The notes under the pieces: generated by a model
Told to the model about the DNA's origin: nothing
Seen by the model: the letters and a program-made list of their open reading frames with translations, nothing else
Databases searched by the model: none
Shown here: piece by piece, positions 1,901 through 37,042 of the stretch
Numbering within the stretch: the first letter of the stretch is position 1
Layout of the letters: each line of letters begins with the position of its first letter
Position numbers and translations under genes: made by a program
Assembly (NCBI GenBank): GCA_038746835.1
Contig: JBCDKH010000011.1
Location: 1-37,858 of the forward strand
From: Planctomycetota bacterium
Lineage (GTDB): Bacteria; Planctomycetota; Phycisphaerae; Tepidisphaerales; Tepidisphaeraceae
DNA length: 37,858 bases
Direction of reading: 5' to 3'

Positions 1901-4471
1901 CTACTTGCGTCGTTTGGCCCCACGCCGTGGGGTCGCCGTCATCGGGTCCTCGGGCCAATCGTGTTTGGGATACCGCGCGCGGAGGTCTTTGCGGACCTGC
2001 GGGTAGGTGTTTCTCCAAAAGCTGGCGAGGTCATCGGTCACCTGCTGAGTCCGCATGTTGGGGGCGAGCAGATGCAGCGTCACCGGCACCGCGCCGCCGC
2101 AAACCCGCGGCGTGGCGGCAAGGCCGAAGAGCTCCTGGATGCGGACAGCGAGAATTGGGCCGCGCACGTAGCCCGGCTCGGCTGACGTGTGGCCCCAGTC
2201 CAGCTTGATACGACTGCCCGACGGGACCACGAGCGCGTCGGGCACGTGCTTTTCGAAGACCTCCCGCCACGCGGACGAGGCGATTTCAGCACGTACCCAC
2301 TCGCGCACCAGATCACGCACCTTCGCCTCCGTCGGCTCGCCGAGCGACGCAGCAAGGCGACAGGCGTTCTCCACGTGCTCGTACTCCGGGAGGCCGCCAG
2401 GCAGCTGGTCTTCGGGCCAGAGGTGATGGGGCAGGTGGTTCTCAAGGAAACCCAGCCTGATGAAGACGTCGTCCGGCGACGTGTCGCCGTAGGCAAAGTT
2501 GAGCCCAGCATTATCATCGGGTGAGCACTTTTCGAGGAGCAACTTTGCCGCGTCCCACGGATCTTCGAACCTGCCTGTTTGCTGCTCATGCAGCACCAGG
2601 TCGCCAAAACGTGTGCGGCGAATGGCTTCGACTGCACGCTTTTGATCATTCCAATGGGCGATCGTTTCAACGACGACGTGCCGCGGCAGAAGCTCGTCGA
2701 GCCACTCGACCTCGATCGGCGAGACCAGCCGGGCCTCGGCCTGCTGGGCTTTGGCAAAGCTGCCACGGCGGGCGTCGAGCGCGAGGAACCAGTCGCCGCG
2801 CACGGCCGATGAGTCAGCCAGCGTCACGCCGCCACCGTTGACCAGCGTCGCGGTTTCAGGAGAGCGCCGTCGACAGACGCGGTCGGGGAAGGCGAGAAGG
2901 AGCAGTTTTTCGAGGGAACTGGTGGGGGCGACGGAATCCGGGCCTGGCGGCCCGGCGTCGTCATGAGCACCCCGACGCCGAAGCGCCAGCTTCGGATCCG
3001 GTCGTGCAGCACCTTTCGTCTGCCACAGCAGCACGTCCCGCGCGCGACGGACCATCTGCGTGACGACCGGGTTGAGCTTGCGAGCGTCAAACGCCGCGAT
3101 GAGATCAGCCATCGTCGCGGTCCTGCTGCCGGGCAGATCAGCGCCTTCTCCCAGAAGCGCCGCCGCCAGCGCCGCGTCGCTCGCCAGCTCCGGCGGGGCC
3201 AGAGCCAGCAAGGCGGCCGGGCGGGGTGGCAGGGGGATCGACTGCATCGCCTTACCGAGCCTGGTCAGCCGGCCGTCCTCGACTGCGCTGAGCCAGTCGA
3301 GCAGGGTCATCGCCGCGTCCAGGCGTTCGGGCTCGGGCGGCTCGAACCAGTCGAGCGTCTGCGGGTCGCCGCCCCATGCCAGCACCGACAGGGCCGCCCG
3401 CGACACGTCGGCCCGCCGAATCTCCGGCACGTCGAACGCCGGCAGCCGCTTGTGCGTCATCGCCGACCAGAGCCTGATGCACCGGCCCTCGGCCACGCGT
3501 CCGGCGCGACCCGCACGCTGCTCGGCCGAGGCCTGGCTGATCCGCTCGGTCGTCAGCGTCTCAACGCCGCGCGACGTGTCGAATCCGGCCCGGCGGACCT
3601 GCCCCGAGTCGACGACCACCCGCACGCGCGGCAGCGTCAGCGACGTCTCGGCGATGTTCGTCGCGCAGATCACCCGCGGCCGATCGCCGTCGCCGCGGAC
3701 CGCCTCGTCCTGCTCCTCCTTCGTCAGCGACCCGTGCAGCGGGAGGCAGTCGTAGCCGAACCGCCGACCGATCGGACGGATGGCCTCTAGTGTTGCTTCG
3801 ATTTCGCGAACGCCCGGAAGGAAGACGAGTACGTCGCCGGTATCGTTTTGTAGTAGAGGCTCAATTTTATTTGATATGCGATGCTGGATTGGTCGCGGAC
3901 TGTCGCCGGCATAATTGATGTTCACGGGGAACGTCCGACCCGGCACGTGGAGCACCTCCGGCTCGCCGAGATAGCCGGCGACCTGGTCGGCGTCGAGGGT
4001 CGCGCTCATCACGACGATCCGAAGATCATCACGAAGTTGCTGTGCCTCCTTCAGCATCGCCAGCGTGAGATCCGCGTCGAGGCTGCGCTCGTGGAACTCG
4101 TCGAGCACGACCACGGCGATCCCTTCCAGCAGCGGATCGGCCACTACGGTCCGGGCCAGAACGCCTTCGGTCACAATGCGGATCGGCGTGGTGGCCGTGA
4201 GGTGTTTCTCGAATCTCACCGCGTACCCAACAGTGTCGCCCAGACGCCAGCCGTTCTCGTCGGCGATGCGACTCGCAGCGAGCCTGGCGGCGACCCGGCG
4301 GGGCTGGAGCATGACACAATGACCGTGCGTCAAAAGGTCCGCCCGAAGCAGCGCCGGCGGGACGCGCGTCGTCTTGCCCGCGCCCGGCTCGGCGACCAGC
4401 ACGACGTCCCGCCCCGCGGCAAGCGCGGCTGTCAGCCGCGGCAGGTGCTCGTCGATCGGCAGCGGGGTCAC
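1901..4471 (-). CDS. hrpB: ATP-dependent RNA helicase HrpB (DEAH box)
   Basis: An 856-residue DEAH-family helicase, the normal HrpB length. Motif I is AEPGAGKTTRVPPALL (GAGKT at residues 30-34), motif II DEFHERSLDADL, motif III MSATLD, and motif VI QRAGRAGRVAEGRCIRL. The C-terminal half carries the HrpB-specific region. GTG 4471 is chosen because the family begins with LPIDEHLPRL just before motif I; the frame stays open to 4699, but the extra 76 residues are Arg-rich and unlike HrpB. HrpB proteins are cytoplasmic NTPases of poorly known role. A linker near residues 490-512 is longer than usual and is encoded by a two-hairpin repeat (2936-2997). The C-terminus is very basic (RRGAKRRK). Confidence 0.93.
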   Translation of the reverse strand: MTPLPIDEHLPRLTAALAAGRDVVLVAEPGAGKTTRVPPALLRADLLTHGHCVMLQPRRVAARLAASRIADENGWRLGDTVGYAVRFEKHLTATTPIRIVTEGVLARTVVADPLLEGIAVVVLDEFHERSLDADLTLAMLKEAQQLRDDLRIVVMSATLDADQVAGYLGEPEVLHVPGRTFPVNINYAGDSPRPIQHRISNKIEPLLQNDTGDVLVFLPGVREIEATLEAIRPIGRRFGYDCLPLHGSLTKEEQDEAVRGDGDRPRVICATNIAETSLTLPRVRVVVDSGQVRRAGFDTSRGVETLTTERISQASAEQRAGRAGRVAEGRCIRLWSAMTHKRLPAFDVPEIRRADVSRAALSVLAWGGDPQTLDWFEPPEPERLDAAMTLLDWLSAVEDGRLTRLGKAMQSIPLPPRPAALLALAPPELASDAALAAALLGEGADLPGSRTATMADLIAAFDARKLNPVVTQMVRRARDVLLWQTKGAARPDPKLALRRRGAHDDAGPPGPDSVAPTSSLEKLLLLAFPDRVCRRRSPETATLVNGGGVTLADSSAVRGDWFLALDARRGSFAKAQQAEARLVSPIEVEWLDELLPRHVVVETIAHWNDQKRAVEAIRRTRFGDLVLHEQQTGRFEDPWDAAKLLLEKCSPDDNAGLNFAYGDTSPDDVFIRLGFLENHLPHHLWPEDQLPGGLPEYEHVENACRLAASLGEPTEAKVRDLVREWVRAEIASSAWREVFEKHVPDALVVPSGSRIKLDWGHTSAEPGYVRGPILAVRIQELFGLAATPRVCGGAVPVTLHLLAPNMRTQQVTDDLASFWRNTYPQVRKDLRARYPKHDWPEDPMTATPRRGAKRRK
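2936..2997. repeat. Two-hairpin repeat inside the hrpB coding region
   Basis: Two 25-nt arms in inverted orientation are separated by 12 nt (2961-2972). Left hairpin: CCGGGCC-TGGC-GGCCCGG. Right hairpin, read on the minus strand: CCGAAGC-TGGC-GCTTCGG. Of 25 aligned positions 19 are identical, and all six differences form three compensated stem pairs. The flanks (ATCCG... and ...CGGCGTCG) are shared. The element stays in frame and encodes an Arg/Gly/Pro-rich linker (LALRRRGAHDDAGPPGPD). Related single hairpins lie at 13934 and 37017. Confidence 0.75.
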
Positions 4472-4950
4472 GGGTCCGAGGCTACGGATCGTGCACAAGC
4501 TGTCGCGCCGGCAGAACGTGCGGATTTTCCAGAGGCCGGTGCAAAACGTGTCGCGCCGCGCGCGTGGGGCGCTCGCGGCCTGAGTCGGATGTGGCCTTTG
4601 GACGATGTGAGATCTTGCTGACACGAGGGGGCGACGACCTTCGTCGGACCATCGCGACACCCGGCGCGCCCGCTCGCGCCAGGCCATCCACACGTGCACA
4701 AGCTGACAGGATGAGTTGAGAGCGTTTGACCAACAACGGCTTGCGGTGTCAAGATGAGATTCGATTCACCGTTATCGACAGACTCACTTCTGGGGACTGC
4801 CCTTTCCACTTCGTCAACCAGAGGTGATCCGGAATGGCCCACGTGGAGCGCGCGGTCGCCTGGCGGATCGGCGTGGGCACGGGGTGAGCGTTTCGCATAG
4901 AGTGCCGCTTCGATTCGTCCAGGCCGGCTAAGGCCGCTTAACTATCTGCC
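4472..4950. other. Divergent intergenic region between hrpB and dnaN
   Basis: A 479-nt region without a convincing gene. It holds a perfect 13-nt direct repeat CGTGCACAAGCTG (4490-4502 and 4693-4705) and a 10-nt repeat TGTCGCGCCG (4501-4510 and 4549-4558). Two weak matches to the DnaA box TTATCCACA are present: TTATCGACA at 4772-4780 (one mismatch) and CCATCCACA at 4684-4692 (two mismatches). It should contain the promoters of both flanking genes, but no clear -35/-10 pair was found. There is no AT-rich unwinding stretch, so an origin is not claimed. Confidence 0.45.
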
Positions 4951-12410: not shown

Positions 12411-14687
12411 CTACCCTATCTTCGCCCGACGCAGCCGCAGGGCGTTGCCGAGGACGCTGATGTCGGAGAGGGCCATCGCGCCGGCGGCGATTTCGGGTTC
12501 GAGGAAGCCCGCGGCTGCGATGGGGATGGCGGTGACGTTGTAAATGAAGGCCAGGAACAGGTTCTGCTTGATCACGCGCATTGTCCGGCGGCTCAGCAGC
12601 AAGGCGGCCGGGACGTCGGTGAGGCGGTCGCTCATGAGCACGACGTGACCGGCCTGTTTGGCGGCGTCGGTGCCGGCGGCGAGGGCGATGCCGACGTGGG
12701 CGGCGGCGAGGGCAGGGGCGTCGTTCACGCCGTCGCCGACCATCGCGACCCGGCGGCCATCGGCCTTGAGCTTTTCAATGACGGCCTGCTTTCCGTCAGG
12801 GCGGACGTCGGCGTGGATGGTTTCGATACCGAGTTGCCGGGCGATGGCTTCGGCGGCTTCGTGGCGATCGCCGGTGAGGAGTTGGACGTTGAGGCCGCGA
12901 TCGCGGAGGTGGCGGACGACGTCGGCGGCATCGTTGCGTGGGGCGTCGCGAAGTTCGACATAGCCGACGGGTTGCCCGTCGAGGGCGATGTGGGCGATCG
13001 TGCCTGAGGCATCCGCGACTGGCGTCGCGGCGTCGATCAGCGAGGCGTGTCCGACAGTGATGCGTCGGTGTTCGACGATTGCCTCGACGCCGAGGCCTGG
13101 GTGGTTGGTGAAGTCGGTGGCTTCCGACAGCTCGATCTGCTGATCGCGTGCATTCGCGACGACCGCGGCGGCCAACGGGTGCTCGCTGGACTGCTCGGCC
13201 GATGCGGCGAGACGCAGTAGCTCTCGTTCGTCGACGTCGCTGGTTGCAACTACGCGTGCAACCGTCGGCGAGCCCGTCGTGAGTGTGCCGGTCTTGTCGA
13301 AGACGACTGTGTCGACGGCCGCGGCGTTCTGGATGGCGTCGATGTCGCGAAGCAGGATGCCGCGTCGCGCACCGCGGCCTGTGCCGACCATGATCGCCGC
13401 CGGCACCGCCAATCCGAGGGCACACGGGCAAGCGATGATGAGCACGCTGCACGTTGCCCGGGCCGCATCGCCCCAGACGCCGGGCGTCGCTTTGTCGCTG
13501 GCGAACCCGAGCACGAGCCACGCGGTGGCTGTCAGTGCGGCAATCACGAGGACGACCGGCACGAAGATCGCCGAGATCTGATCCGCCAGCTTCTGCACGG
13601 GCGGGCGAGAGGCTTGGGCCGTCTCGACGAGCTTGACGATCGACGCGAGCGTCGTCTCCGACCCTGCGGCCGTGATGCGGACGACGAGCGAGCCTTCGCG
13701 ATTGACGCTGCCGCCGACCACGGTGTCACCCGCGGCCTTTGCGACGGGCATGGGTTCGCCGGTGAGCATCGATTCGTCCACCCCGCCGCGGCCCGACTCG
13801 ACGGTGCCGTCGGCGGGGACGGTCATCGCGGGCTTCACGAGGACGCGATCGCCCGGGCGGAGGGTGTCGGCGGGGACTTCCTCGGCCTCGGGGGCACGGA
13901 TGGTGAGTGAGAGGCGTTTGCGTGCGGGTCGGTCGGGACCCGAAGCTTCCGCTTCGGTGTCGGGTGGAAGGCGCAGGGCTGTTTGTGGCGCGAGGTCGAG
14001 CAGGGCGCGGATGGCGTCGCCGGTCTTGTCGCGGGCTCGGGCTTCGAGCCAGTGGCCCAGCGAGATGAGCGTGAACAGTGCTGCCGACTCGGCGAAGTAG
14101 AGCTCCGCCAGAGGCCAGCCGAGCAGCAGGTGGCCGACGAGCGCGACGGCGGAGTAGCCGTAGGCCGTCCCACCGCCTAGTGCGATGAGCGTGTCCATGT
14201 TGGTCGTGCGACGCTTCGCTGCGCGCCAAGCGCTGGCGAAGAACGCCCGGCCTGCGATGAGCATCACGGCGGTGCCTGCGACGACGCCGACCCACGTCAT
14301 CCACGTCGTGCCGGCGTGGTCGTGGCCGCCCGTCAGGAGCACGGTTCCCCAGTGCAGCGACTCGGCGGGCACCCAGAGGACCAGGCCGATGATGGCACGC
14401 CATTTCCACCGCTCGGCGGCGAGTCGGGCTCGTTCCTGCTGGGCGTGACGATCGCTCGCCTGCGAGACGAGTGTCGCCGCATCGTCCGCAGGCCTGGCCG
14501 GGAAGCCGGCGTCGCTGATGGCGTCGGCCACCGCATCGATGCGCCGCGCGTCGTCGAGGTCGACTTGTGCCCGGCCGTTGGCGAGGTCGATCGTGATCTC
14601 ACGGAGACCGTCGATGCGCTTCGCCGCCCGGCTGACGTTGGCGACGCAGCTGGCACAGTGCATGCCTTCGACGAGCAGTTCCGCCAT
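12411..14687 (-). CDS. copA: Copper-exporting P1B-type ATPase
   Basis: 758 residues from ATG 14687 (a GTG at 14723 is possible). An N-terminal heavy-metal domain has GMHCASC (C11, C14). The transmembrane CPC motif is at residues 420-422 (IIACPCALGLAVPAA). DKTGTLTTG holds the phosphorylated Asp, with TGEPMPV in the actuator domain, EHPLA for the HP motif and GDGVNDAP near the end. CPC plus YN (AFIYNVTAIP) fits a Cu(I) pump. In the last helix the family's 'MxxSS' reads MALSD, so one Ser position is Asp. The segment DTEAEASGPDRP, about residues 240-251, is an extra loop encoded by a palindromic hairpin. It exports copper from the cytoplasm. It leads the run DUF433, DUF5615, dinG. Confidence 0.94.
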   Translation of the reverse strand: MAELLVEGMHCASCVANVSRAAKRIDGLREITIDLANGRAQVDLDDARRIDAVADAISDAGFPARPADDAATLVSQASDRHAQQERARLAAERWKWRAIIGLVLWVPAESLHWGTVLLTGGHDHAGTTWMTWVGVVAGTAVMLIAGRAFFASAWRAAKRRTTNMDTLIALGGGTAYGYSAVALVGHLLLGWPLAELYFAESAALFTLISLGHWLEARARDKTGDAIRALLDLAPQTALRLPPDTEAEASGPDRPARKRLSLTIRAPEAEEVPADTLRPGDRVLVKPAMTVPADGTVESGRGGVDESMLTGEPMPVAKAAGDTVVGGSVNREGSLVVRITAAGSETTLASIVKLVETAQASRPPVQKLADQISAIFVPVVLVIAALTATAWLVLGFASDKATPGVWGDAARATCSVLIIACPCALGLAVPAAIMVGTGRGARRGILLRDIDAIQNAAAVDTVVFDKTGTLTTGSPTVARVVATSDVDERELLRLAASAEQSSEHPLAAAVVANARDQQIELSEATDFTNHPGLGVEAIVEHRRITVGHASLIDAATPVADASGTIAHIALDGQPVGYVELRDAPRNDAADVVRHLRDRGLNVQLLTGDRHEAAEAIARQLGIETIHADVRPDGKQAVIEKLKADGRRVAMVGDGVNDAPALAAAHVGIALAAGTDAAKQAGHVVLMSDRLTDVPAALLLSRRTMRVIKQNLFLAFIYNVTAIPIAAAGFLEPEIAAGAMALSDISVLGNALRLRRAKIG
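13934..13964. repeat. Single hairpin repeat inside copA
   Basis: Stem CCGAAGC-TTCC-GCTTCGG at 13940-13957, flanked on the minus-strand side by CCCGACA. On the minus strand it closely matches the right arm of the hrpB element (CCCGAC-A/G-CCGAAGCG...AGCTTCGG) and the copy at 37017. It is in frame and encodes an extra loop at the start of the actuator domain of CopA. Confidence 0.65.
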
Positions 14688-37016: not shown

Positions 37017-37042
37017 CAACCCGAAGCTTCCGCCTCGGCGTC
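37017..37042. repeat. Single hairpin repeat related to the copA and hrpB copies
   Basis: CCGAAGC-TTCC-GCCTCGG (37021-37038). It has the same loop as the copA copy, and the minus-strand flank GACGCCGA matches the hrpB copy. One stem position is a wobble or mismatch. It lies in the short gap between the small unknown gene (stop 37082) and the NamZ-like gene. Confidence 0.6.

Follow-up and report, generated by a model that had tools for sequence, protein, structure and literature searches.

Introduction

The described elements closest to the present locus are the CGTC REPs, short stem-loops with stems of 8-9 bp, almost invariably A-T first pairs and tails that are mostly CCA, and with no associated transposase (Di Nocera et al., 2013, PMC3733652). 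That account also reports REPs inside genes, equates the Rickettsia conorii elements RPE-4 and RPE-6 with REPs and assigns both to the CGTC REPs; RPE-1 is described there as a longer palindromic insertion. Heterodimers of units with different stems are also described there, with the suggestion that enzymes destroying long palindromes leave them intact (PMC3733652).

The locus analyzed here is a pair of hairpins inside hrpB of a planctomycete (Tepidisphaeraceae, assembly GCA_038746835.1). The window is the whole stretch of DNA that was analyzed, 37,858 nucleotides of contig JBCDKH010000011.1 (C11 in our numbering), and belongs to a draft genome (3.85 Mb, 335 contigs) with a completeness of 96.6%.

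Results

Two opposed units in hrpB

The hrpB gene is a full-length match to TIGR01970 and carries the hairpin pair in frame. The features of the site are as follows.

1904..4477, minus strand: hrpB coding sequence, start codon uncertain (TIGR01970, E = 9e-196, residues 6-857)
2936..2959, plus strand: REP-like unit 1, GGC stem subtype, TGGC loop, 3' end CGTC; ATCCGGGCCTGGCGGCCCGGCGTC, exact to the family pattern
2960..2973, no strand: 14-nt spacer between the two inward-facing hrpB units
2974..2997, minus strand: REP-like unit 2, AAG stem subtype, TGGC loop, 3' end CGTC; ATCCGAAGCTGGCGCTTCGGCGTC, exact to the family pattern

Positions 2936-2997 hold two opposed 24-nt units of the form ATCCG-nnn-CTGGCG-n'n'n'-CGGCGTC, each folding into a hairpin of seven base pairs around a TGGC loop. 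Shuffled versions of the 62-nt stretch fold less well than the native one, which has z of about -3.2 on the plus strand and about -3.7 on the minus strand. The earlier note described inverted arms of 25 nt whose six differences form three compensated stem pairs. The arms are an inverted pair, with a conserved unit of 24 nt and a 25th position that is one flanking base. Compared on their own strands, the units differ at exactly six positions, all in the stem, giving the three compensated pairs claimed (GGC/GCC versus AAG/CTT).

A repeat family in the genome

The genome was searched with the family pattern ATCCGNNNCTNGCGNNNCGGCGTC, leaving the stem triplets free and allowing at most one mismatch; the reversed pattern served as control. 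The family pattern gave 39 matches and the reversed pattern 0. The stem triplets were fully Watson-Crick in 33 of the 39 matches and paired with G-T allowed in 37, against chance levels of ∼2% and ∼6%. Subtypes CGG, CGA, GGC, AAG and AGA each occurred with the matching partner triplet, and the 4-nt loops included TGGC, TTGC, TAGC, TTCC and others. Across 63 copies the unit had sharp ends, R-A[T/C]-CCG-nnn-CT-nn-CG-n'n'n'-CGG-CGTC, and random flanks. Another way of writing the unit, and a diverged copy in the window, are given below.

REP-like unit, further written form: ATCCGnnnCTnGCGnnnCGGCGTC
37019..37042, plus strand: sister-subfamily unit, diverged, one stem mismatch

Covariation was scored in 32 distinct units that had been pre-filtered for near-complete pairing, the unfiltered 37 of 39 being the safer evidence; two-sided change was found in 31 cells against 8.8 ± 2.1 in shuffles, and the score was 0.412 against at most 0.082 in slid controls. 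Shifting the partners abolished pairing in these 32 units. The three free stem pairs that vary by compensation across the genome are the same three as at hrpB. The 24-nt unit is a genuine genome-wide repeat family, and the earlier proposal of a dispersed palindromic repeat that entered hrpB in frame is borne out by the many other copies found when the genome was searched by pattern (39 at no more than one mismatch).

The hrpB pair joins a GGC unit to an AAG unit, and its three compensated pairs arise because two existing stem subtypes meet in one heterodimer. Local compensatory evolution of the two arms was discarded in favor of this pairing of pre-existing subtypes; the differences are inherited from the subtypes rather than evolved at the site.

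Stable hairpins with a covarying stem could also be expected of a structured RNA or attenuator, in which the pair would work at the level of the hrpB transcript and the covariation would be a trace of RNA function. An Rfam search at the hrpB hairpins returned no family over threshold, and copies lie in unrelated genes and contexts in both orientations relative to transcription. On these two grounds the RNA-element reading was rejected; we regard it as very improbable.

Orientation and spacing of pairs

Nineteen close pairs were found beside 25 single entries. Seventeen pairs face outward, with CGTC outside, and two inward, the hrpB pair being one of the latter. Spacers measured 9-40 nt and the flanks showed no conservation. 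With two different stem subtypes in one pair, both 7-bp hairpins would stay intact and the long 62-nt palindrome would be weaker, and this may give the pair more stability in the genome. By analogy with the published heterodimers, pairs of the present family may likewise be spared by palindrome-destroying enzymes.

The linker in HrpB

The repeat translates to DPKLALRRRGAHDDAGPPGPD, residues 494-514 as numbered from the uncertain start. The insert from GAT to GAT is 63 nt, or 21 codons, and preserves the hrpB frame; it adds ∼20 residues relative to HrpB of relatives, in a linker that varies in length and lies immediately ahead of the conserved LLLAFPDR motif. From the RARDVLL helix to LLLAFPDR this linker has 47 residues here and 20-46 in 17 relatives aligned there (mostly 26-35, the two longest 38 and 46). 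Removing the 21 codons leaves 26 residues, near the common length in relatives. Over a stretch of 71 residues in the present protein, E. coli HrpB has 36. Length alone proves nothing, because in one relative, L101, the linker reaches 46 residues with no such repeat. The suggestion that other HrpB proteins lack the linker agrees with the alignment, in which ∼20 residues are missing from the relatives and distant conservation was not found. The linker is most likely neutral, and no benefit to HrpB is proposed.

Coding DNA is GC-rich here (third-position GC 0.82), and a palindrome might arise in it by chance under protein selection. The reversed control gave 0 matches, synonymous-codon shuffles, which leave out local Ala-codon runs, predict at most 0.006 exact paired coding matches genome-wide, and the residues are missing in HrpB relatives. 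A chance palindrome, rejected because of the copy number, is the least probable of the explanations weighed and next to negligible.

Copies in other genes and reading-frame bias

Reading frames holding copies were assigned by protein-family searches, which replaced codon usage because the latter alone was unreliable. At least 16 sites besides hrpB are in frame inside conserved genes, among them sites in ligA, top6B, valS, nrdJ, cysS, dinB, astD, hrpA, the P-type ATPase and a glycosyltransferase. The assignments were as follows.

Genes with copies: ligA, two; top6B; nrdJ, two; valS, one pair plus a lone unit
Genes with copies: cysS, gltX, acs/pat, rhaI, dinB, dprA, hrpA, fabD
Genes with copies: aldehyde dehydrogenase (ALDH), astD, glycosyltransferase, amidohydrolase
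Genes with copies: P-type ATPase, two, both in the window
13011..13034, plus strand: single unit, CGA stem, antisense, in frame in the heavy-metal P-type ATPase, encoding DAATPVAD
13938..13961, plus strand: second unit of that P-type ATPase, sister subfamily, ACCCGAAGCTTCCGCTTCGGTGTC; it lies in a stretch of ∼22 residues missing from the LpCopA structure

By the protein-family test about half of roughly 45 sites are intragenic, and the coding share of a 438-kb genome sample is ∼87%; genes are therefore depleted of copies but far from avoided.

The 24-nt unit is a multiple of three and spans 8 codons. The main subtype is stop-free in all six frames; in the TAGC-loop subtype, two frames contain a stop. 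Twelve single copies were tested (ligA 1 and 2, top6B, P-ATPase 1 and 2, valS, hrpA, glycosyltransferase, cysS, dprA, nrdJ 2 and dinB), and 12 of 12 used only two of the six frames, both Ala/Ser/Asp-rich ((1/3)^12 = 2e-6), giving [D/H]AxxxxxD-like or (E)SxxGxxA-like octapeptides. None of the 12 used the Arg- and Trp-rich frames. When both pair arms and copies without length gain were counted, 24 of 26 fell in the two preferred frames (P = 5e-10); the PKLALRR frame was confined to one arm of the pair in hrpB and one arm of the pair in astD. A codon-pair model showed no background preference for the two favored frames. Selection after insertion is the simplest reading of the bias, and genic copies would survive only at tolerant sites and in frames that yield small, soluble residues.

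A single open frame with a thiL-like and a tsaE-like domain (L031:1475-2869, minus strand) has an outward REP pair between the two, where it possibly joins two genes.

Insertion and replacement

Length gains relative to relatives were measured at several copies: 8 to 9 residues at the second ligA copy, 31 residues around the top6B copy and ∼22 around the second P-ATPase copy. The first ligA copy lies within a much longer insert. At acs there was no gain: every relative that aligned at this place ran through the copy without a gap, and the flanks were conserved. No gain was found at gltX, whose protein is shorter than its relatives, or at the first nrdJ copy, and fabD was counted as no gain at +3 residues. 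The fumC (one mismatch) and ALDH (two mismatches) copies lie in gap-free alignments without gain; both were set aside as possible chance matches. In acs/pat and gltX (L222, L080) the REP-like units occupy native helices rich in Ala, without length gain.

Simple insertion does not account for all copies, because acs, gltX, fumC and ALDH show no net gain. A codon-pair model that leaves out local Ala-codon runs predicts ∼1e-4 exact paired matches per frame, and because this and the shuffles above predict so few, the exact copies in gltX and acs can hardly be put down to chance. These two may represent replacement, or insertion with a compensating deletion.

A broader alternative is that a REP-like single strand or hairpin overwrites partly similar coding DNA in a gene-conversion-like manner, with hrpB at the insertion-like end of the process. 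The ungapped acs alignment with its conserved flanks, the absence of gain at gltX, the gap-free fumC and ALDH alignments and the improbability of convergence (∼1e-4 exact paired matches per frame; two in 296 outside genomes) are in its favor. However, hrpB, ligA, top6B and the second P-ATPase copy have real length gains, the ALDH and fumC matches may be chance, and the native helices are Ala-rich already, a feature that codon nulls without local Ala-rich runs do not capture. We consider overwriting as the general process unlikely. The narrower version, in which gene-conversion-like copying replaces eight native codons in frame with length kept (acs, gltX, possibly fumC and fabD) and operates besides insertion (hrpB, ligA), is doubtful to the same degree.

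Occurrence in other genomes

A broader exact pattern gave 47 matches in the own genome and 4 in a genome of the same family (G002), where the loop is TTCC and one outward dimer occurs. The other genomes among 297 related at class level had at most 2 matches each. Exact paired matches in the 296 genomes excluding the own genome and G002 numbered only two, as counted by eye. Scattered exact-pattern matches in unrelated phyla across wider genome contigs were taken as chance without individual checks; one that was read (L129) had an unpaired stem. The family is apparently nearly confined to the present genome and expanded in a single sequenced genome.

Neighboring transposases

A scan for the unit covered the flanks of three Y1_Tnp (PF01797) loci in the own genome and of 29 loci in relatives. 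None of the Y1_Tnp genes was flanked by it (0 of 3 and none of 29). The nearest family units lie 1.3-2 kb from the valS transposase, itself flanked by another repeat. In a draft that is 96.6% complete a cognate transposase gene may have been missed. Because no Y1_Tnp gene is flanked by the unit, the mode of spread is put forward conditionally: units would spread as single-stranded DNA hairpins through an HUH-type nuclease or replication errors.

Inspection of the three Y1_Tnp genes showed other hairpin repeats at the flanks of each. The first is an in-frame Y1/IS200-like transposase domain within valS (L218:1157-5974, contig C157, insert ∼3310-3990), an insert of ∼250 residues against ∼13 in the valS model. 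This valS is the sole one of the genome above cut-off, its open frame is uninterrupted by a stop, and a different palindromic repeat, GCGAGCCCCGAGCGTGAGCGAGGGG and its inverse, flanks the transposase domain as two pairs. The second is a RAYT-like gene of 188 aa (L220, contig C87, ∼1000-1730; 1083-1649 in L083) with hairpins of ACGAACTGAAGTTCGTGCCACG and CACGATCTTCAGATCGTGTC type at both flanks; these hairpins are a separate repeat family, with the RAYT-like gene as its likely transposase. The third has an internal TGA and is flanked by GCCTGCGTGAGCGGGCGCTTC and GCCCGCGTGAGCGGGCGCTTC (L219, contig C63, 2340-3010). A hairpin close in form to these two, CGCCCGCGTCAGCGGGCG, lies at 1149-1166 of the window.

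Discussion

The hrpB feature is, with good probability, the insertion at a tolerant linker of an inward-facing heterodimer from a genome-specific REP-like palindrome family. This family joins the REP-like ones already described, and around half of its examined sites are in frame in conserved genes. A 24-nt unit of 8 codons, stop-free in its main subtype, together with a two-frame preference, points to selection filtering mobile palindromes in essential genes.

Like the CGTC REPs of Di Nocera et al. (2013, PMC3733652), the present unit is a short stem-loop, its 4-nt loop lying within the published 4-5 nt. Outward dimers predominate and inward ones are rare (17 versus 2 here), subfamilies carry alternative complementary stem residues, intragenic copies occur, and transposase association is lacking (0 of 3 PF01797 genes flanked by the present unit). 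CGTC stands at one end in most copies and lies 3' of the stem here, which may be the side opposite to that of the published tag. Unlike the published units, the 7-bp stem starts C-G, C-G, G-C, invariant in 32 sequences, and the tail beside the stem is AT or AC, not CCA. The family is set apart from the CGTC REPs because its stem is shorter and does not begin with A-T pairs, and because the CCA tail is absent.

With the GTAG REPs and REPINs of Pseudomonas and E. coli and their RAYT it shares dispersed short palindromes, often in inverted pairs. As in those systems the genome has Y1/RAYT-like genes, but these are flanked by other hairpin repeats, and no RAYT is flanked by the present unit. There is no GTAG motif, spacers are neither fixed nor conserved, and many copies are single. 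The REPIN-like pair layout proposed in the earlier note was accordingly given up: many copies are single, spacers of 9-40 nt are unconserved and no Y1/RAYT gene is flanked by the unit.

The resemblance to Rickettsia palindromic elements in genes held up, with in-frame copies in unrelated conserved genes and, in the published account, RPE-4 and RPE-6 equated with REPs (PMC3733652). As with RPE-1 and other RPE, palindromic DNA lies in frame at tolerant sites of housekeeping genes, and for hrpB, the second ligA copy and top6B the element-encoded peptide is missing from orthologues. Unlike that pattern, the acs, gltX, fumC and ALDH copies come without extra peptide, and unlike RPE-1 the single unit is only 24 nt, or 8 residues. 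The present repeats are a separate REP-like family, outside the published CGTC-REP and REPIN definitions, that works like those elements and in the manner of the palindromes within genes of Rickettsia (RPE) and Opitutus.
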